Position numbers and translations under genes: made by a program. This document shows, in pieces, positions 36,684 to 45,502 of a stretch of DNA of 64,000 bases; the stretch's first letter is position 1; the number at the start of each line of letters is the position of its first letter. The DNA comes from Kushneria aurantia DSM 21353 (lineage in GTDB: Bacteria > Pseudomonadota > Gammaproteobacteria > Pseudomonadales > Halomonadaceae), in the NCBI RefSeq assembly GCF_000382245.1, contig NZ_KB907866.1, positions 1 to 64,000 of the forward strand, given 5' to 3'. Below the pieces are notes generated by a model. The model searched no databases. It had not been told where the DNA came from and saw only the letters and a program-made list of their open reading frames with translations.

Positions 36684-37043
36684 TCAGCGCTCCAGCACCA
36701 CCTGATCGCCCTCCAGCCGCAGCAGCCAGACCTTCAGCCGTACGCTGTCATCCTCGAGACAGATACCGTCGCGCAGGCGAAAGTGCTGCTTGTAGATCGG
36801 CGAGGCGACCACCGGCTCGCCTCCCTTGTCGCCGATAATGCCGCGGCCGATGACGTTGGCATTGGAGAAGGGGTCGTGGTGGTCGATGCCGAACACCGCC
36901 GGCTCGCCCCGCCGGTCGATGCCGCGAGGCAGATAGAAAATCGCGATCTGGTGACCGTCGTGCAGGGCGACCACGCCGGAGTCGTCGACCAGGTCGCTGC
37001 GCCGACACAGCACCTTGTGAGGGGTAGCGGCAGTACGGTTCAT
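36684..37043 (-). CDS. nirD: nitrite reductase (NADH) small subunit
   Basis: A 119-aa Rieske-like NirD subunit. LCRRSDLVDDSGVVALHDGH and IAIFYLPR open it, and GDKGGEPVVASPIYKQHFRL is the conserved core. As usual for many NirD proteins, the iron-sulfur ligands of true Rieske proteins are absent. It stabilises or assists NirB in reducing nitrite to ammonium. ATG 37043 overlaps the nirB stop (TGATG). Confidence 0.92.
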   Translation of the reverse strand: MNRTAATPHKVLCRRSDLVDDSGVVALHDGHQIAIFYLPRGIDRRGEPAVFGIDHHDPFSNANVIGRGIIGDKGGEPVVASPIYKQHFRLRDGICLEDDSVRLKVWLLRLEGDQVVLER

Positions 37044-39637
37044 CAGCGGATCTCCACGGCAAGAGACTGAATTTCGTCGGCGCGCGCCGGGCGGGGCTGG
37101 CCGCGCTCGCTGACGTTGACGATGTCCGGGTCGCCGCACTTGTCGTTGACGAAGGTGCGAAAGCGCTTGAGCTTCTCCGGGTCACCGAGGGCGTTGGCCC
37201 ATTCGCACTCATAGGTGTCGACCACGTGCTGCATCTGACGCTCCAGCTCTTCGCCGAGCCCCAGGCTGTCATCGATAATCACCGCCTTGAGGAAGTCGAG
37301 ACCGCCCTCGAGGCTTTCGCGCCACACCGAGGTGCGCTGTAGCTTGTCGGCGGTGCGCACGTAGAACATCAGAAAGCGGTCGATGTAGCGCACCAGGCGG
37401 TCGCTGTCGATATCGGTGGCGAACAGCTCGGCGTGACGCGGACGCATGCCGCCGTTGCCGCACACATACAGGTTCCATCCCGCCTCGGTGGCGATCACGC
37501 CGATATCCTTGCTCTGCGCCTCGGCGCACTCGCGGGTGCAGCCCGATACGCCCATCTTGATCTTGTGCGGCGTGCGCAGCCCCTTGTAGCGATGCTCCAG
37601 TTCGAGCGCCATGGCGACGCTGTCCTGCACGCCGTAGCGACACCAGCTGTTGCCGACGCAGGATTTCACCGTGCGCACGGACTTGCCGTAGGCGTGACCG
37701 GTTTCGAAACCGGCGTTGATCAGCGCCTCCCAGATATCCGGCAGCTCGTGCAGCTCGGCGCCGAACAGGTCGATGCGCTGGCCGCCGGTGATCTTGGTGT
37801 AGAGATCGTACTTTTTCGCCACTTCACCCAGCGCCACCAGTTTGTCCGGGGTGATTTCGCCGCCGGCCACACGCGGCATCACCGAGTAGGTGCCGTTTTT
37901 CTGCATGTTGGCCATGAAGGTGTCGTTGGTGTCCTGCAGGGCGACGTTCTGCGCGTCCATGATCGGCTGATTCCAGCAGGTGGCCAGAATCGAGCCGATG
38001 GTGGGCTTGCAGATATCGCAGCCCAGGCCCTGGCCGTGCTTCTCCAGCAGTTCGCCGAACGATTGGATGCCTTCGACGCGCACCATGGCGTAGAGCTCCT
38101 GGCGGGTATAGGCGAAGTGCTCGCAGAGGCTGCGATCGACCGCCACACCGCGCGCTTCCAGCTCGTGTTCGAACACCTGTTTCAGGAGCGCCGAGCAGCC
38201 GCCACAGCCGGTACTCGCTTTCGTGTCGATCGTGAGTGCGGCGAGATCGGCGCAGCCGGCGTCGACGGCGCTGCACACCGCGCCCTTGGTGACGTTGTGA
38301 CAGGAACAGATGGTGGCGCTGTCGGGCAGCGCGTCGGCGCCCAGTGCCGGGGCGCCGCCCTCGTTTTGCGGCAGGATCAGGCTGGCCGGGTCATCGGGCA
38401 GGGCGATACCGTTCTGGGCGTACTGCAGCAGGGTGTCGTAGTAGCTGTTGTCGCCCACCAGCACCGCGCCCAGCACCTTTTTGCCGTCGGCGGAGACCAC
38501 CAGCCGGCGGTAGCCGCTGCCGGCCTCATCAATATAGCGGTAGCTTTTGGCCCCTTCGGTAGCGCCATGGGCATCGCCGATCGAGCCAACGTCGACCCCC
38601 AGCAGCTTGAGTTTGGTCGACATGTCGGCGCCGTTGAAGTGCGCCTCTTCGCCGGTCAAACAGCCCGCCACGGTGCGCGCCATGGTGTAGCCCGGCGCTA
38701 CCAGACCAAAGATGCGGTTCTGCCACAGGGCGCACTCGCCGATGGCGAAAATCTCCGGGTCCGAGGTGCGGCAGCTATCGTCAATGACGATACCGCCGCG
38801 CTCGCCGGTCTCCAGACCGCAGTCGCGCCCCGGTTTGTCCTGCGGACGGATGCCGGCGGAGAAGACGATCAGGTCGGTATCCAGCGGCTCGCCGCCCTTG
38901 ACGTTCATGCGATAAGCGTATGCGTCGTTCGGGGTAGCAACGATCTCCTCGGTGGCGCAGCCGGTATGCACGCCCACGCCGAGCGCCTCGATGCGCTCGC
39001 GCAGCGCCGCGCCGCCCTGCTCGTCGAGCTGCACCGGCATCAGGCGCGGGGCGAACTCCACCACGTGCGCTTCCAGACCCAGCGACTGCAGGGCGTTGGC
39101 CGCTTCCAGCCCTAAAAGGCCGCCGCCGATGACAACCCCGCGGCGCGCACCTGCGGCCTGTTGGCGGATGGCATCAAGGTCGTCGAGGGTGCGATAGACC
39201 AGCCGCGCCTGCGGGTGTGTGGCGGTATCGGGGCCGGGAATCGGCGGCACGAAGGGGTATGACCCGGTGGCGATGACCAGGCTGTCGTAGGCCAGCCGCC
39301 CCTCGGCGGTGACCACTTCCTTGCTGTCGCGGTCGATGGCGGTGACCGCCACGCCCAGATGCAGCGCCACGCCGTGGGTGCGGTGCAGATCGGGCTCGCC
39401 GAGAGCGAGGGCGTCGGCATCCTTGCCGGAGAAGTACTCCGACAGGTGGACACGGTCGTAGGCGCGGTGGCGTTCGTCGCCGAAGACGTGGATCTGCCAC
39501 TGCGCCGTGGCGCCGCGCTCGATCAGTTGTTCGATGCAGTAATGGCCCACCATGCCGTTGCCGATGATGACCAGCTGTTTTCTGTTGGTATCGATACTCG
39601 GCTGGTCGTGGTTGAAAGTCGCGTCCTGATTACTCAT
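37043..39637 (-). CDS. nirB: nitrite reductase (NADH) large subunit
   Basis: An 864-aa NirB that reduces nitrite to ammonium with NADH in the cytoplasm. It has an N-terminal FAD domain (VIIGNGMVGHYC), an NAD-binding loop (VVIGGGLLGLEAAN), and a central BFD-type [2Fe-2S] module (CSCHNV then GCGGC). The siroheme/4Fe-4S sulfite-reductase-like repeats hold CVGNSWCRYG and GVSGCTREC. The length is normal. A GAGGAGG ribosome-binding site precedes ATG 39637, which overlaps the upstream stop by ATGA. Confidence 0.95.
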   Translation of the reverse strand: MSNQDATFNHDQPSIDTNRKQLVIIGNGMVGHYCIEQLIERGATAQWQIHVFGDERHRAYDRVHLSEYFSGKDADALALGEPDLHRTHGVALHLGVAVTAIDRDSKEVVTAEGRLAYDSLVIATGSYPFVPPIPGPDTATHPQARLVYRTLDDLDAIRQQAAGARRGVVIGGGLLGLEAANALQSLGLEAHVVEFAPRLMPVQLDEQGGAALRERIEALGVGVHTGCATEEIVATPNDAYAYRMNVKGGEPLDTDLIVFSAGIRPQDKPGRDCGLETGERGGIVIDDSCRTSDPEIFAIGECALWQNRIFGLVAPGYTMARTVAGCLTGEEAHFNGADMSTKLKLLGVDVGSIGDAHGATEGAKSYRYIDEAGSGYRRLVVSADGKKVLGAVLVGDNSYYDTLLQYAQNGIALPDDPASLILPQNEGGAPALGADALPDSATICSCHNVTKGAVCSAVDAGCADLAALTIDTKASTGCGGCSALLKQVFEHELEARGVAVDRSLCEHFAYTRQELYAMVRVEGIQSFGELLEKHGQGLGCDICKPTIGSILATCWNQPIMDAQNVALQDTNDTFMANMQKNGTYSVMPRVAGGEITPDKLVALGEVAKKYDLYTKITGGQRIDLFGAELHELPDIWEALINAGFETGHAYGKSVRTVKSCVGNSWCRYGVQDSVAMALELEHRYKGLRTPHKIKMGVSGCTRECAEAQSKDIGVIATEAGWNLYVCGNGGMRPRHAELFATDIDSDRLVRYIDRFLMFYVRTADKLQRTSVWRESLEGGLDFLKAVIIDDSLGLGEELERQMQHVVDTYECEWANALGDPEKLKRFRTFVNDKCGDPDIVNVSERGQPRPARADEIQSLAVEIR

Positions 39638-40887
39638 GCAGCCTCCTCGAGCTGTTGGCTGGCGTCATGGGCGCCGAAAAGAAGGGTGTCGCGGCAGGCG
39701 CGCAGGTCGCGCCGCCGCTGCGCCTGGTGGAAGTACCAGGGGCCGTCGCGGGTGTCGCCGTAGAGTACGCCGCCGACGAGAACGCCGTGGCGCAGGATCA
39801 GGCGGCGGTAGTCTCCTGCCTCGATATCCACGTAGCGCAGCACCTCGTCGCCGGCTTCGGGGTCGAGCACGCCGAAGGCGTAGAGGTCGATGCCGCTGAT
39901 CTTGAGTTGGGTGGCGCAGTCGCCGAGGGCGTAGCGGGCGTCACCGCCGCACAGGCGCTCGGCCAGTACCTCCACCTGGGCGTGAATCGGTTCCACCAGG
40001 CCGAAGGTGGTGCCCTCGAATTCACAGCACTCGCCCAGCGCATGGATGTGCGTATCGCTGGTGGTCAGGGTGTCGTCGACGGCGATCGCCCGCTCGCCGG
40101 CCAGACCTGCGGCCAACCCCGGTTCGGCGTTGGGCAGGATGCCGGCGGCGGTCACCACCAGCGCCGCAGGCAGCCGCTCGCCGCTGTCCAGCAGCACACC
40201 GTCGACGCGCTCGCCGTCGCCCTCAAAGGCGGTCGGCTGACAGCCCAGTCGCAGCTCGAGGCCGCGCCGGGCCAGCTCGGCGCTCAACAGCTCGGCGGCC
40301 TGCGCATCGAGCTGGCGGTTCATCAGATGGCGCGCGCGGTGCACCAGGGTAACCGTCATGCCACGTTTTCTGAGCCCTTCGGCGGCCTCCAGCCCCAGCA
40401 GGCCGCCGCCGATGACCACCGCACGGCGTCCACAGCCGCTGGCCGCCAGCAGGGTGTCGACATCGGCGGTGGTGCGAAAGCCGTGAATGCCGGCAAGTGC
40501 TGCGCCGGGCAGATCGAAAAAGCGCGCCCGCGAGCCCGTGGCGATGACCAGCCGGTCGTAGTGCCAATGCTCGCCGCAGTTGTCGGTCACGCAGCGGGTC
40601 TGGCGGTCGATCCTTTCGATGCGCCGGCCGCTGTGTAGTCGGATGTCGTGCTGTGCGAACCACTCTGCATCGCGCAGGGCAATGCCGTTTTCGTCGATCT
40701 CGCCGGCCAGCAGCGGTGAGAGCAGAATGCGGTTGTAGGCTGGTCGCGCCTCGTCACCGAAGACGTGAATGTGGCGCGGACGTTCGTCACGCTCGGCGAG
40801 GCGCTCCAGCAGGCGCTGACTGGCCATGCCGTGGCCGATAATCACCAGTTTGTCGATAGCCCTGCTGCCCTGTCGCAGCATTGTCAT
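39634..40887 (-). CDS. nasC: NasC-like FAD/NADH electron-transfer subunit of assimilatory nitrate reductase
   Basis: A 417-aa pyridine-nucleotide-disulfide-type oxidoreductase. The FAD-binding loop is LVIIGHGMASQRL, with VIATGSRAR, the NAD loop VVIGGGLLGLEAAEGL, and ALGECCEFEG as the second FAD contact. It resembles the N-terminal half of NirB but lacks siroheme domains. In Klebsiella such a protein (NasC, ~411 aa) passes electrons from NADH to NasA, which fits the divergent nasA here. ATG 40887 with GGAGGCGAT is preferred over an upstream start that would run through the terminator. First gene of the nasC-nirBD operon. Confidence 0.85.
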   Translation of the reverse strand: MTMLRQGSRAIDKLVIIGHGMASQRLLERLAERDERPRHIHVFGDEARPAYNRILLSPLLAGEIDENGIALRDAEWFAQHDIRLHSGRRIERIDRQTRCVTDNCGEHWHYDRLVIATGSRARFFDLPGAALAGIHGFRTTADVDTLLAASGCGRRAVVIGGGLLGLEAAEGLRKRGMTVTLVHRARHLMNRQLDAQAAELLSAELARRGLELRLGCQPTAFEGDGERVDGVLLDSGERLPAALVVTAAGILPNAEPGLAAGLAGERAIAVDDTLTTSDTHIHALGECCEFEGTTFGLVEPIHAQVEVLAERLCGGDARYALGDCATQLKISGIDLYAFGVLDPEAGDEVLRYVDIEAGDYRRLILRHGVLVGGVLYGDTRDGPWYFHQAQRRRDLRACRDTLLFGAHDASQQLEEAA

Positions 40888-40927
40888 ATCGCCTCCCCGA
40901 ACGTTGACGACGGTCTGAAACGCAAAA

Positions 40928-40972
40928 CGGCGCCTGCGGTCGCGGGGGATAACCCCGGTTCCGCAGGCGCCG
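40928..40972 (-). terminator. leader terminator (attenuator) before nasC-nirBD
   Basis: Read on the minus strand, CGGCGCCTGCGG and CCGCAGGCGCCG form a perfect 12-bp stem with an inner G/C hairpin. The tail is TTTTGCGTTT, about 40 bases before the nasC start. Its 5' arm contains the 3' arm of the upstream P2 hairpin, so the two structures exclude each other. Confidence 0.8.
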
Positions 40973-41045
40973 TTGCCTGAAATGCCTGTTGCTGTGCTGA
41001 CGATCTTGCCGCCAGGCGGCGAGGCGGCTCTGCCTCGCCGCTGGC
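40964..41045 (-). ncRNA. ANTAR-type dual-hexaloop antiterminator leader (nasC-nirBD arm)
   Basis: Minus-strand P1 is a 14-bp stem with one bulge (41011-41045) closed by loop AGAGCC. P2 is CAGGC-AACGGC-GCCTG (40964-40979). Both loops are six bases with A at position 1 and G at position 4, the known signature of RNA bound by ANTAR-domain antiterminators such as NasR/NasT. The linker is 31 nt (40980-41010). P2 overlaps the terminator stem, so protein binding would allow read-through into nasC. Confidence 0.8.
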
Positions 41046-41077
41046 GCACGACGGTGTGCGCCATCTCGTTCATTTGG

Positions 41078-41094
41078 GGCAGAATGCGTGCCAG
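41078..41094 (-). promoter_or_regulatory. sigma-54-like promoter for nasC-nirBD
   Basis: On the minus strand TGGCACGCATTCTGCC matches the -24/-12 consensus TGGCACG-N4-TTGC with GG-N10-GC spacing. Transcription would begin some 12 bases on, about 20 bases before hairpin P1. This agrees with NtrC-type nitrogen control. Confidence 0.7.
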
Positions 41095-41099
41095 GTATG

Positions 41100-41310
41100 C
41101 CAGTGGCCTTTTTTATCAGCGCTTTATGTTATTTAAAATGGCGCTTTTTATTTTTATACCGTTATCTTGACGGGTGGCGACACCATCAGGGTGCACGGGC
41201 AATAGCGCTTTGTGCGTTATTGGTGCGCGGCGCTGTGCCGGCGCTGCCAAAAAGCGCCTTGCTGCTGTCCAGTGGACTACTTATCTGCCTGAGCAGGCTG
41301 TAAAAGGCGC
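41100..41310. other. intergenic core between divergent nitrate-assimilation promoters
   Basis: No gene is seen. The stretch would hold activator (NtrC-type) sites for both sigma-54 promoters; partial GGTGC/GCACC half-sites occur near 41190-41225, but no clear full palindrome was recognised. Confidence 0.4.
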
Positions 41311-41313
41311 CGG

Positions 41314-41354
41314 GCGGTGCGGTTTTTGCAAAACGGGCGGTGCGTTTTTTGCAA
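41314..41354 (+). promoter_or_regulatory. nasA: two tandem sigma-54-like promoters for nasA
   Basis: GGTGCGGTTTTTGC (41316-41329) and GGTGCGTTTTTTGC (41339-41352) each have GG-N10-GC spacing and lie in near-identical 23-bp repeats (GGGCGGTGCG...TTTTTGCAAAA). The downstream copy would start RNA at about 41364, shortly before leader hairpin P1. Confidence 0.65.
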
Positions 41355-41387
41355 AAGTTAATGTACAAGAGTCTGCCGCGGCGGCGG

Positions 41388-41460
41388 CACGCATCAATGG
41401 CGATGTCGTGTCACAACGCTGCCCGGCGACACCACCGGTTATCGGGGCATCGGGGCCCGA
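41388..41460 (+). ncRNA. ANTAR-type dual-hexaloop antiterminator leader (nasA arm)
   Basis: P1 is CACGCATC-AATGGC-GATGtCGTG (41388-41410, one bulged T). P2 is TCGGgGC-ATCGGG-GCCCGA (41442-41460, one bulged G). Both hexaloops have A1 and G4. The linker is 31 nt, identical in length to that of the opposite leader. The 3' arm of P2 (41455-41460) is part of the 5' arm of the following terminator, the known layout for NasR/NasT-type antitermination. Confidence 0.8.
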
Positions 41461-41495
41461 ATCCGCCACTGGCGGGTTCGGGCCTCGTGCGTTTA
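41454..41495 (+). terminator. leader terminator (attenuator) before nasA
   Basis: GGCCCGAATCCGCC (41454-41467) pairs with GGCGGGTTCGGGCC (41471-41484) over 14 bp, with one G-U pair and a 3-base loop. The tail is TCGTGCGTTTAT. It lies about 100 bases before the nasA start and is mutually exclusive with P2. Confidence 0.75.
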
Positions 41496-41593: not shown

Positions 41594-44296
41594 ATGCATG
41601 AAACCACCACCTGCCCCTACTGCGGCGTGGGCTGTGGCGTGGTCGCCAGCGTCGAGGAAGGTCGGTTGAACGGCGTCGAGGGCGATCGCGATCATCCCGC
41701 CAACTACGGTCGGCTATGCGTCAAGGGTTCGGCGCTGCACGAGACGCTGGGCCACCAGGGGCGGCTGACCCGGCCCCGTATCGAGGGTCGCGAGGTGGAC
41801 TGGAATGAGGCGCTCGATACCATTGCCGATCGCCTTGGCGAGGTGCGTATGCGCCACGGCGGCGCGGCGATCGCCGGCTATCTTTCCGGTCAGCTGCTGA
41901 CCGAGGACTATTACATCGCCAACAAGTTCTTCAAGGGCTTCATCGGCACGCCGCACCTGGACACCAACTCGCGGCTCTGCATGGCCTCGGCGGTGGCAGG
42001 CTACAAGCGCGCCTTGGGGGCCGACGCCGTACCCTGCTGCTACGAGGATCTGGAGAAGGCAGAGCTGGTAGTGCTCAGCGGCAGCAATCTCGCCTGGAAC
42101 CATCCGGTGTTGTTTCAGCGCCTGCGCACCGCCAAAAGCCGCAACCCGCTGATGCGGGTGGTGGTGATCGACCCGCGTGTGACCGACACCTGCGAGCTGG
42201 CCGATCTCTATCTGCCCATCGCTCCGGGCAGCGACATCGCGCTGTTCAACGGTTTGCTGGCCTACATGGCGGCAAGGGGGCGGCTGGATCGTGACTTTAT
42301 CGCCCATCACACCGAAGGATTCGAAGCGGCGCTGGCGGCGGCGCGCGACGAGGCGGCGGATATCGCTACCGCCGCGCGGCGCTGCGAGGTCGATGCCGAG
42401 CGGCTGGAGACCTTCTATTACTGGTTCGCCAGCCAGCTGCACGTGGTGACGCTCTACTCCCAGGGGGTCAATCAATCGAGCAGCGGCACCGACCGGGTCA
42501 ACGCCATCATCAACTGCCACCTTGCCGGGGGCAGCATCGGTCTGCCCGGCGCCGGGCCCTTTTCGATCACCGGGCAGCCCAACGCCATGGGCGGCCGCGA
42601 AGTGGGCGGGCTGGCCAATCAGCTCGCCGCCCATATGGACTATCACACCCCTGGCGCCATCGATCGGGTAGCGCGCTTCTGGAGCGTGCCCGGGCTGACG
42701 CCGACGCTGCCCGAGGCGCCGGGGCACAAGGCGCTGGCGCTGGTGGAGGCGATCGAGCGCGGCGAGATTCGCGCGCTGTGGATCATGGCTACCAACCCGC
42801 TGGTGAGCCTGCCGGACGCCAACCGGGTGCGCCGTGCGCTGCACAAGTGCCCGCTGGTGATCGTCTCCGACTGTATGGCCGACAGCGATACGCTGGGCTG
42901 TGCCGATATCGTGTTGCCGGCCAGCGGCTGGTCGGAAAAGGACGGCACGGTGACCAACTCCGAGCGGCGTATCTCGCGTCAGCGCGGCCTGCTGCCAGCG
43001 CCGGGAGAGGCGCGCCACGACTGGTGGATCATCTGCGAGGTGGCGCGCCGCATGGGCTTCGCGGCAGCGTTCGATTATGACGGCGCCCATCGGATCTTCG
43101 ACGAGCATGCCCGTCTCTCCGGCTTCGAGAACGGCGACGGTCCGGGCGAGACCTTTCGGCTTTTCGATATCTCCGCGCTGGCCGGCATGGACCGCGCCGC
43201 CTATGACGCTCTGGCGCCGGTGCAGTGGCCGGTCAACGCTGCGTCGCCGCGGGGTACGGCGCGGCTTTTTGAAAGCGGTCGCTTCATGACCGACAGCGGC
43301 CGGGCAAGGCTCGTCGCCGTGCGCTCGCGCGCCGCGATCCAGCAGCCCGAGGGGGAGGCGCGACTGTTGCTCAACAGCGGCCGCATTCGCGATCAGTGGC
43401 ACACCATGAACCGCACCGCCCGTGCTGCCCGCCTGATGCACCATCGCAGCGAGCCCTTTATCGAGGTTCACCCGGCGGATGCGGCGCGGTATGGCGTGCA
43501 CGACGGCGGCCTGGCGCGACTCGTCAACGCCCGCGGTGACTATCTGGGTCGGGTGCGGGTGACCACTTCACAGCGTCGCGGGGAGCTGTTCGTGCCGATC
43601 CACTGGAACGATCAGTTCAGCACCCGGGCGCGTGCCTCGGCGCTGGTAGCGGCGGTGTGCGACCCGCTTTCCGGGCAGCCGGAGTCCAAGCAGGCGCGGG
43701 TGGCACTGGCGCCGCTGCCGCTGCCGCAAGAGGCTTGTCTGCTGCTCGGTTCGGACGACAAGGCGCCGCTGGCAGAGAGCGGCTGGTGGTGCCGCATTCC
43801 CATGTCCCACTGTCAGCGCTGGCAGCTGGCGTTGGCAAACGCAGAGCCCTGGTGGGAATGGTGTCGCGAGCAGCTGGGCAGCGCGCCGACGCTGTGGAGC
43901 GAAGATCCGGGCAGCGGTCACTTTCGTGCTGCGCGGATCGAAGCCGGACGGCTGGTGTGGTGGCTGGCGGTGGCGCCGACCGGTCGGCTCAATCCGCTGC
44001 TGGGTGAGATCGGCTGGCTCGATGACTGCTTTGCTCTCGAGAAAATCGAGCGCGAACAGCGCCGCCGACTGCTGGCCGGTCGAGCGGCCAGCGGTGAGGA
44101 TGCCGGCGTCACGGTGTGCAGCTGCCACCAGGTGGGGCAGAAGACCATCGAAAGGGCGATTGCCGAAGGCTGCTTGAGCGTCGCGGCGCTGGGCGACAGG
44201 TTGGCCTGTGGCACCCGCTGCGGCTCCTGCATTCCCGAGCTCAAGAAGCTGGTGGCGGCACAGGCCGAGCGGCATGCCGAAGCCGAATCGGCCTGA
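41594..44296 (+). CDS. nasA: assimilatory nitrate reductase catalytic subunit
   Basis: A 900-aa molybdopterin enzyme that reduces nitrate to nitrite in the cytoplasm. The N-terminal [4Fe-4S] site is CPYCGVGC (C7, C10, C14) with the fourth Cys in GRLCVKGS. The molybdopterin domain shows DTNSRLCMASAVAGYKRALG, LSGSNLAWNHPVLFQR, VVVIDPRVTDTCE and VTLYSQGVNQSSSGTD. A C-terminal BFD-type [2Fe-2S] module (CSCHQVGQKTIERAIAEGC, then CGTRCGSC) is present, as in Klebsiella NasA. ATG 41594 follows GAAGGAG; a much longer frame upstream runs through the leader and is not coding. Confidence 0.95.
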   Translation: MHETTTCPYCGVGCGVVASVEEGRLNGVEGDRDHPANYGRLCVKGSALHETLGHQGRLTRPRIEGREVDWNEALDTIADRLGEVRMRHGGAAIAGYLSGQLLTEDYYIANKFFKGFIGTPHLDTNSRLCMASAVAGYKRALGADAVPCCYEDLEKAELVVLSGSNLAWNHPVLFQRLRTAKSRNPLMRVVVIDPRVTDTCELADLYLPIAPGSDIALFNGLLAYMAARGRLDRDFIAHHTEGFEAALAAARDEAADIATAARRCEVDAERLETFYYWFASQLHVVTLYSQGVNQSSSGTDRVNAIINCHLAGGSIGLPGAGPFSITGQPNAMGGREVGGLANQLAAHMDYHTPGAIDRVARFWSVPGLTPTLPEAPGHKALALVEAIERGEIRALWIMATNPLVSLPDANRVRRALHKCPLVIVSDCMADSDTLGCADIVLPASGWSEKDGTVTNSERRISRQRGLLPAPGEARHDWWIICEVARRMGFAAAFDYDGAHRIFDEHARLSGFENGDGPGETFRLFDISALAGMDRAAYDALAPVQWPVNAASPRGTARLFESGRFMTDSGRARLVAVRSRAAIQQPEGEARLLLNSGRIRDQWHTMNRTARAARLMHHRSEPFIEVHPADAARYGVHDGGLARLVNARGDYLGRVRVTTSQRRGELFVPIHWNDQFSTRARASALVAAVCDPLSGQPESKQARVALAPLPLPQEACLLLGSDDKAPLAESGWWCRIPMSHCQRWQLALANAEPWWEWCREQLGSAPTLWSEDPGSGHFRAARIEAGRLVWWLAVAPTGRLNPLLGEIGWLDDCFALEKIEREQRRRLLAGRAASGEDAGVTVCSCHQVGQKTIERAIAEGCLSVAALGDRLACGTRCGSCIPELKKLVAAQAERHAEAESA

Positions 44297-44531: not shown

Positions 44532-44936
44532 CTATCTTTCCAGCCAGTTCTCTACGTTGAGGTCACGAATGCGGCTGAATTCGCGCGTGTTGTCCGTCAC
44601 TAGCGTGAGGCCGAGCGCATGGGCGTGTGCGCCGATCAGCAGATCGTTCATGCCGATAGGCTGGCCAGACGCTTCCAGCTCGGCGCGGAGGCCGCCGTAT
44701 GCAGCGTCAGCCGGAATATCCAGCGGCAGCACCGGGATCGTTTCAAGGATACCATCCACCCTGGCAAGCAGCCTGGGCGAACCCTTCTTTGCACAGCCAT
44801 AGCGCAGCTCGGCTGCGACGATGATGCTGGTGAAAATCTCTTTTGGCCCGACCTGCTCAATGCGGCGTGCGGCAGGCCCATCCGGGCTGCGGATCACATC
44901 GCTGATGATGTTCGTATCCAGCAGATATCCGCTCAA
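44532..44936 (-). CDS. vapC: VapC-type PIN-domain toxin
   Basis: A 134-aa PIN ribonuclease: SGYLLDTNIISDVIRSP (D7), IIVAAELRYGCAKKGS (Glu), PIGMNDLLIGAHAHALG (Asp) and TLVTDNTREFSRI (Asp) give the full acidic cluster. It is translationally coupled (ATGA) behind vapB. It sits on a ~1.07-kb insert between nasA and the ABC transporter gene. Intact. Confidence 0.92.
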   Translation of the reverse strand: MSGYLLDTNIISDVIRSPDGPAARRIEQVGPKEIFTSIIVAAELRYGCAKKGSPRLLARVDGILETIPVLPLDIPADAAYGGLRAELEASGQPIGMNDLLIGAHAHALGLTLVTDNTREFSRIRDLNVENWLER

Positions 44937-45205
44937 AATATGTCCTCCGGCTGGGCGGGCATGTCCTCAATGGCCGGGAGCTGATCTTCTGGCCCAAGCG
45001 GCGCTTCTTTCCTCCACTCGGCCAGCAGTTCGACGATGTTCGTTGGCCGAGTCACTGGCTCGATGATGAGTTTGCTGCCTTCGCGGTGGATTAGCACACG
45101 ATCTCCTGGCAACTCGAACTCCACAGGAATACGCACCGCCTGGCTGCGGTTGTTGCGAAACAGCTTGACTTCCTTGGGTCTGGATGGCGTCGATAGGGTA
45201 GGCAT
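44933..45205 (-). CDS. vapB: VapB/VagC-type antitoxin
   Basis: A 90-aa AbrB/SpoVT-fold antitoxin. The DNA-binding half is KEVKLFRNNRSQAVRIPVEF and LPGDRVLIHREGSKLIIEP. The acidic C-terminal tail (LGPEDQLPAIEDMPAQPEDI) probably occupies the toxin. ATG 45205 follows TTGGAGCACAATGCC. Directly upstream are two TGGCATATACA repeats that probably serve as operator. Confidence 0.9.
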   Translation of the reverse strand: MPTLSTPSRPKEVKLFRNNRSQAVRIPVEFELPGDRVLIHREGSKLIIEPVTRPTNIVELLAEWRKEAPLGPEDQLPAIEDMPAQPEDIF

Positions 45206-45220
45206 GGCATTGTGCTCCAA

Positions 45221-45245
45221 TGTATATGCCAAATTGTATATGCCA
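45221..45245 (-). promoter_or_regulatory. tandem operator-like repeats before vapB
   Basis: TGTATATGCCA occurs at 45221-45231 and 45235-45245, a 14-bp period, just upstream of vapB. AbrB-type antitoxins bind such paired half-sites. Confidence 0.6.
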
Positions 45246-45259
45246 GCCTGCGCCGCGTC

Positions 45260-45502
45260 AATCGGCCGGGCACCGTTACGTATGACGCCCTGGCAGCCTG
45301 GGCGTTGGCCCTGATTTGGGTGCCGTCCAGGCTGATGGTCCTTACCTTGAGCAGTTGCATCTCGCGGGCCACTTCCAGCACCTGAACGAACAACTCGGCC
45401 AGTTCGTCGAGAAAGCGCCGGCGGAAGGTGGCTCATGGCGGATCCGGGATCAGGTGGATGTCGGTATTTATCTCATGCCCGGCGTGGAAAGTCCGACAGG
45501 CT
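45260..45502 (-). pseudogene. IS1182-family transposase fragment
   Basis: On the minus strand ATFRRRFLDELAELFVQVLE and then VAREMQLLKVRTISLDGTQI with RANAQAARAS can be read, the conserved N-terminal segment of IS1182-type transposases. It stops near 45290, with an in-frame stop upstream (near 45435) as well. The outer edge CAGCCTGTCGGACTTTCC (complement of 45485-45502) looks like a terminal repeat and abuts the 92-bp repeat exactly. Confidence 0.7.

Follow-up and report, generated by a model that had tools for sequence, protein, structure and literature searches.

Predicted paired ANTAR-type attenuator leaders on the two arms of the divergent nasA and nasB-nirBD locus of Kushneria aurantia and its relatives

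How might the nitrate reductase gene nasA and the nasB-nirBD genes of Kushneria aurantia, which face in opposite directions from one intergenic region, be switched together? The question was addressed with a 64-kb stretch of DNA (here called the window) from contig 5 of the 61-contig genome. In the window, nasA (positions 41594 to 44296, plus strand) encodes a molybdopterin nitrate reductase catalytic subunit with a C-terminal Fer2_BFD domain, as assigned with Pfam and with NCBIfam scores under the curated cut-offs, and GAAGGAG stands ahead of its ATG. The minus strand carries nasB (39634 to 40887), assigned with Pfam and NCBIfam as an FAD/NAD(P)H oxidoreductase subunit gene and taken to start at ATG 40887 after GGAGG; nirB (37043 to 39637), encoding the nitrite reductase large subunit (NCBIfam TIGR02374, 1060 bits); and nirD (36684 to 37043), encoding the small subunit (TIGR02378, 86.5 bits, above the cut-off). 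The gene that the initial annotation of this DNA called nasC, ahead of nirBD, proved to be of the nasB type, encoding an FAD subunit. A 479-amino-acid minus-strand open reading frame starting at 41073 was rejected as nasB; its start was considered mechanical because the domain begins only at residue 75 and because GGAGG precedes ATG 40887. Downstream of nasA lies a minus-strand gene (44933 to 45436) for a protein with a VapB/MazE-like antitoxin domain.

The nasB arm on the minus strand contains, from 5' to 3', a sigma54-type site, the three hexaloop hairpins HP0, HP1, and HP2, and an intrinsic terminator. HP0 (41042 to 41063), an extra hairpin and candidate P1 that was absent from the initial annotation, reads TGGCGCAC-ACCGTC-GTGCGCCA from 41063 to 41042 and has 8 bp; HP1 (P1; 41016 to 41041) carries the loop AGAGCC on a 10-bp stem; HP2 (P2, the predicted antiterminator; 40964 to 40979) is CAGGC-AACGGC-GCCTG, with 5 bp; and the terminator (40926 to 40974) begins within the HP2 loop and has a U-rich tail after its stem. 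On the plus strand, the nasA leader contains HP1 (P1; 41391 to 41406; GCATC-AATGGC-GATGT, 5 bp), HP2 (P2; 41445 to 41458; GGGC-ATCGGG-GCCC), and an intrinsic terminator (41451 to 41487) with the weak U tract TCGTGCGTTTA after its stem. The sequence ATCGGG occurs twice on this strand; the copy within 41445 to 41458 folds cleanly, with C:G closing its loop, and the copy at 41441 closes with U.G. All four hexaloops listed in the initial annotation (AGAGCC and AACGGC on the minus strand, AATGGC and ATCGGG on the plus strand) were recovered with A at position 1 and G at position 4 (A1 and G4), as was the placement, on both strands, of the 3' arm of HP2 within the 5' arm of the terminator. Its linkers of 31 nt on both arms were not reproduced, since maximal stems leave 36 nt on the minus arm and 38 nt on the plus arm. 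The closing pair of all five loops is C:G, in agreement with SELEX on NasR (PMC7496416). P2 and the terminator are mutually exclusive on both arms by sequence and by computed folding, in which full leaders formed the terminators and leaders cut at the end of HP2 formed the hexaloop hairpins.

A scan of both strands of the 64 kb for pairs of ANNGNN hexaloop hairpins in which the second overlaps an intrinsic terminator returned exactly two composite sites, one upstream of nasA (plus) and one upstream of nasB-nirBD (minus), confirming the mirrored pair that had been described initially. No full composite arose in 20 shuffles of the whole window or in 2,000 shuffles of the intergenic region; among the latter, one strand had HP2 and a terminator alone. 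In a test that was blind to loop sequence and covered the window and its relatives, 82 of 87 terminator-overlapping hexaloops had A1 and G4, so that the hexaloops, whose conservation in related genomes had been set as a test by the initial annotation, are indeed conserved. The same test found a terminator without a hexaloop stem of at least 4 on 41 nasA and 6 nasB arms, and no terminator by its rule on 20 nasA and 8 nasB arms.

Covariance searches, also proposed at the outset, gave two kinds of result. Rfam had no match at gathering thresholds, and its 15 matches under permissive settings were all sub-gathering and all to unrelated families; no relevant match appeared at either threshold, and this silence was read as the lack of a usable family rather than as counter-evidence. 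A model built from 22 leaders of other genera gave the two sites the highest scores in the window, 31.4 bits (E value 1.3e-4) on the minus arm and 21.9 bits (E value 0.007) on the plus arm; the third match scored 16.6 bits. For alignment A1, 25 candidate leaders were named, 24 were extracted (the nasA leader of L007 was not), and 22 were used, the omissions being the nasB leaders of L050 (a near-duplicate) and L053 (atypical). Over both hairpins, A1 had 18 cells changed on both sides, compared with a shuffled mean of 5.2, in counts that are biased toward structure because the rows were picked for pairing. Alignment A2 held 28 of 32 NasR-type nasB leaders (L010, L045, L065, and L066 were omitted), which came from 32 of the 44 NasR-typed genomes and were chosen for carrying hairpins; on it, RNAalifold predicted both P1 and P2, and three P1 pairs showed double changes. 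A genome-wide search with the model gave 13 matches, the best of which was the minus site; it scored 150 of 6231 candidates and is incomplete, as the plus site was not among its matches. Seven of the 12 other matches (L169 to L175, at most 24.0 bits) were rejected as leaders for want of an overlapping terminator, and no further leader in this genome is claimed.

The initial annotation had stated that no ANTAR gene lies in the window and had called for a genome search for NasR or NasT. The statement was correct, and the search gave exactly one ANTAR protein (66.3 bits, above the cut-off), which is encoded on contig 24. This protein is a NasT-like receiver-ANTAR protein (PF00072 and PF03861; L001:1471-2199) with no match to the NIT domain, and hence is not of the NasR (NIT-ANTAR) type; its gene adjoins a NasS-like gene (L001:281-1474; PF13379, NMT1_2, 232 bits). 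The nasTS genes on contig 24 are divergent from a gene for a NarK-family transporter (304 bits, just under the cut-off of 311.7), and the scan found no hexaloop-terminator leader in this nasTS/NarK region (L002:7697-11204).

A scan of named genomes confirmed 528 relatives, of which the best 80 were used, all Halomonadaceae by name except L066, which is labelled Gammaproteobacteria. In all 80, nasA lies on one strand and both nasB and nirB on the other. An attenuator was called when a hexaloop with A or G at position 1, G at position 4, and a stem of at least 3 overlapped a terminator, with P1 not required; P1 was not detected in every arm. By this rule, which called 4/810 and 2/810 shuffled arms, none of the 77 ANTAR-bearing genomes (window included) was without an attenuator; 68 had one on both arms and nine on a single arm, and of the arms that failed, the nasA arms of L007 and L010 looked like near misses by eye. 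The four ANTAR-less genomes had no attenuator on either arm. Loop-blind terminator scores in these four were 5.0 to 8.4 (nasA) and 6.0 to 7.6 (nasB), compared with medians of 13.9 and 15.7 in the 76 ANTAR-bearing relatives, in which every nasB arm scored 8.9 to 23.1 and four nasA arms (L015, L026, L058, and L070) scored under 9 despite the presence of ANTAR. Among 40 nas loci from outside the family (fetched from 57 nasA matches), nasB or nirB lay upstream on the same strand as nasA in 28, on the opposite strand in 8, and in neither arrangement in 4. Only L203 had attenuators on both divergent arms, so that the paired layout approximates a family trait in this sample.

Within Kushneria, ten genomes, all at least 99% complete, were scanned. 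Five had an ANTAR protein (two receiver-ANTAR and three NIT-ANTAR), and all five had attenuators on both arms, with the nasA-arm P1 not found in L152 and L155; the four that had the locus without ANTAR, among them K. indalinina and K. pakistanensis, had attenuators on neither arm; and G081 had neither ANTAR nor a close nasA (best identity 29%). Because five of these genomes repeat L003, L004, L005, L020, and L037 by sequence, the main additions from the genus scan are the three NasR-type Kushneria and G081. In a NasA tree of 83 rows (L051 missing; quickly built and midpoint-rooted for drawing), the four ANTAR-less rows formed one clade (99*) whose sister is the window, and a single joint loss was therefore counted. 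Judged from sequence, one natural loss event links the reader and the RNA leaders.

Regulators in the relatives were typed as NasR (44 genomes), receiver-ANTAR (27), both (4), or NasR beside a NasS-like gene (1), and four genomes had none; the typing compared 80 of 95 ANTAR matches with a single NasT and a single NasR reference and took the better BLAST score, so that second regulators may be missed. On the NasA tree, the NasR label required at least three changes and the NasT-plus-NasS label at least six. The available text of PMC8014003 describes NasR and NasST as near-mutually exclusive in Halomonas, and the same pattern was found here; RNA leaders go unmentioned in that text, whereas here both sensor types stand over one paired-leader layout. 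The nasA genes of the three NasR-type Kushneria (L153, L154, and L155) group with Larsenimonas and Salinicola, apart from other Kushneria, and their nas locus may have moved together with the regulator type. In the nasB leaders of L008, L015, L019, L026, L033, L048, and L049, in which nasT is inside the cluster, G replaces A at position 1 of the HP2 loop (GAAGAC, GAAGGC, or GACGAC).

A further hexaloop-terminator leader was seen downstream of nasA in L066 (11194-11275, minus strand) and in L052, L053, L068, L071, and L078 (near 11.2 to 12.2 kb, minus strand), with P1 not found in L071. In L066, the one examined, this leader stands where a gene for a NarK-family transporter begins (308.6 bits against a cut-off of 311.7), which suggests a three-leader regulon.

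An alternative in which the hexaloops are coincidental, and the stems serve as ordinary terminators or as sites for another regulator on the DNA, would accord with terminators that are strong on their own and with the lack of a matching Rfam family. Terminators between promoter and start codon on both arms would, however, merely block the genes; A1 and G4 were found in the 82 of 87 loops independently of loop sequence, and genomes without an ANTAR gene are also without the terminators. This alternative is accordingly considered very improbable. Somewhat less remote, but still unlikely, is that the nasB arm is the sole working ANTAR switch of the locus and that the leader on the nasA arm is in decay and for the most part bypassed, with nasA set by its promoter. 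The plus terminator tail TCGTGCGTTTA is U-poor; the HP2 loop ATCGGG differs from the AANGNN usual in relatives and, of all loops called across 81 loci, has a single occurrence, that in the window; the plus site scored 21.9 bits against 31.4 bits for the minus site in the covariance model; and the plus stretch cut at the end of HP2 placed P1 inside a larger fold of no unusual stability (z-score, -1.1). Against decay, the window contains just two composites, of which the plus site is one, the nasA-arm element of Kushneria sinocarnis carries a similar tail, and a nasA-arm terminator-like stem scoring at least 9 is present in 72 of 76 ANTAR-bearing relatives.

A third uncertainty is a detail within the preferred reading of two NasT-read leaders and concerns which hairpin serves as P1 on the nasB arm. 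HP0 might be the true P1, with HP1 an extra or decoy, or both might load NasT in turn, a proposal to which somewhat less than an even chance is given. HP0 adjoins HP1 with zero gap, and its loop lies 81 nt from that of HP2, inside the 72 to 104 nt of most nasB leaders in relatives with a window-like NasT; loops of the ACCGNN type stand at 85 to 86 nt in L071, L153, and L154; and in loop type and distance the P1 of several relatives is matched by HP0 at least as well as by HP1. On the other hand, the stem of HP1 is longer and its linker shorter, both hairpins lack the AA-type loop that is usual among relatives, and the P1 of the covariance-model alignment fits neither hairpin cleanly. K. sinocarnis (L037) likewise has two candidate P1 hairpins ahead of HP2.

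The ANTAR antiterminator reading of the initial annotation is thus supported by the RNA signature, the model, the conserved loops, and the ANTAR gene; what the predicted leaders do not follow is the spacing rule of EutV, which that annotation left unmentioned. Native EutV linkers are 5 to 12 nt, induction falls sharply at 14 nt, and an added 20 nt abolishes antitermination, as given in the available parts of PMC3369931 and PMC8934654. Both arms exceed the short linker of dual-hexaloop antiterminators (5 to 12 nt in eut), a rule that comes from measurements on EutV; in the published covariance search the linker was allowed to vary (PMC3369931, section 10). Linkers span 6 to 88 nt in the leaders of relatives that were measured, so that natural sequences offer a direct test of the short-spacing rule. 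Structure within the linker could bring P1 and P2 closer, and a spacer hairpin that leaves about 5 unpaired bases was seen in many NasR-type nasB leaders. Because 75.7% of its pairs were formed, with few double changes, and RNAalifold did not predict it on A2 (28 NasR-type nasB leaders), a conserved spacer hairpin stays a suggestion. In NasT-plus-NasS-typed genomes, linkers of at least 34 nt left 8 to 27 unpaired nucleotides in 25 of 27. The idea that linker length tracks sensor type was not supported, as the ranges overlap.

Upstream of the nasB leader, the sigma54-type promoter candidate TGGCACGCATTCTGC (41079 to 41093, minus strand) scored 14 of 15 weighted matches and was the only site scoring at least 14 on either strand of the 64 kb. 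The nasA arm has two tandem sigma54-like sites (41315-41329 and 41338-41352, plus strand), which are weak at 12/15, a score that was reached by shuffled nasA arms in 78 of 405 cases. These lie in a tandem near-repeat with a 23-base period (41300-41360, plus strand), each copy of which has a GG-N10-GC sigma54-like motif. Over the 81 loci, sites scoring at least 13 were present on 45 nasA and 49 nasB arms, compared with 12 and 14 of 405 shuffles; the four ANTAR-less genomes keep sites scoring 14/15 on both arms; and rpoN is present in the K. aurantia genome.

Taken as a whole, the sequence evidence makes paired NasT-read attenuator leaders on both divergent arms the best explanation and a highly probable one. 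Going by sequence and computed folding, each divergent transcript would start near its own promoter and enter a leader that folds by default into the intrinsic terminator; the alternative fold would present two small A1/G4 hexaloop hairpins, the second sharing bases with the terminator. By analogy with Paracoccus, nitrate or nitrite would cause NasS to release NasT; free NasT, its ANTAR domain bound to the loops of P1 and P2, would hold P2 open and so prevent the terminator from forming; and RNA polymerase would then continue into nasA or nasB-nirBD, depending on the arm. Since NasT would permit read-through on both leaders, one NasTS sensor would set both arms together. Nitrogen limitation would enter as an additional input through the sigma54-type promoter, which is clear upstream of nasB and weak upstream of nasA, and with the attenuators the locus would act as "nitrogen short AND nitrate present". 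The published ANTAR model that underlies this proposal is set out in the available parts of PMC3369931, PMC3369936, PMC8934654, PMC7496416, PMC3795266, PMC5424462, and PMC6759348.

The predicted leaders share with those read by EutV (eut of Enterococcus), NasR (nasF of Klebsiella), and AmiR (amiE of Pseudomonas) two A1/G4 hexaloop hairpins with P2 overlapping an intrinsic terminator, an ANTAR protein in the genome, and a target in nitrogen metabolism. Unlike in those systems, two leaders face apart from one intergenic region and a third hexaloop hairpin is possible on the minus leader; the linkers, at 36 and 38 nt, differ from the 5 to 12 nt of eut. In the sensor, the likeness is to NasS-NasT of Paracoccus denitrificans, in which a receiver-ANTAR protein stands beside an NMT1/NrtA-like partner and the nas leader has hairpins. 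NasS-NasT control of nas genes also occurs in Azotobacter and Pseudomonas. Binding of Paracoccus NasT to the nasA leader and nitrate-dependent dissociation of NasS from NasT were demonstrated in the available text of PMC3795266. The Paracoccus leader sits between nasTS and a single nasABGHC unit (PMC5424462, as available), whereas in K. aurantia nasTS is on another contig and the leaders serve two divergent units. Neither paired divergent ANTAR leaders nor ANTAR leaders in Halomonadaceae were met among the papers listed by the literature searches, and single members may be among the genomic hits in the supplementary tables of PMC3369931.

The mechanism is known and ordinary; the paired arrangement is new, and the linkers exceed the lengths over which EutV was tested. 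Nitrate genes with ANTAR attenuators are already known, and here two such attenuators stand back to back and are kept family-wide while the sensing protein changes. A tentative and rather doubtful extension is that the paired leaders form a conserved, sensor-independent RNA module, in which the same divergent two-switch layout would be read across Halomonadaceae by NasR, linked NasTS, or unlinked NasTS, and both arms would be discarded together when the reader is lost; the long linkers' own hairpins may keep P1 and P2 close, so that spacings ruled out under the EutV model might be acceptable to ANTAR proteins, and two P1 hairpins in tandem might serve the minus leader. The ANTAR-less Kushneria clade, with no leaders and with sigma54-type sites on both arms, amounts to a natural knock-out that ties the reader to the RNA. 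As a conserved mirrored pair that is absent together with its reader, and with their long linkers, the leaders are a variant worth testing.
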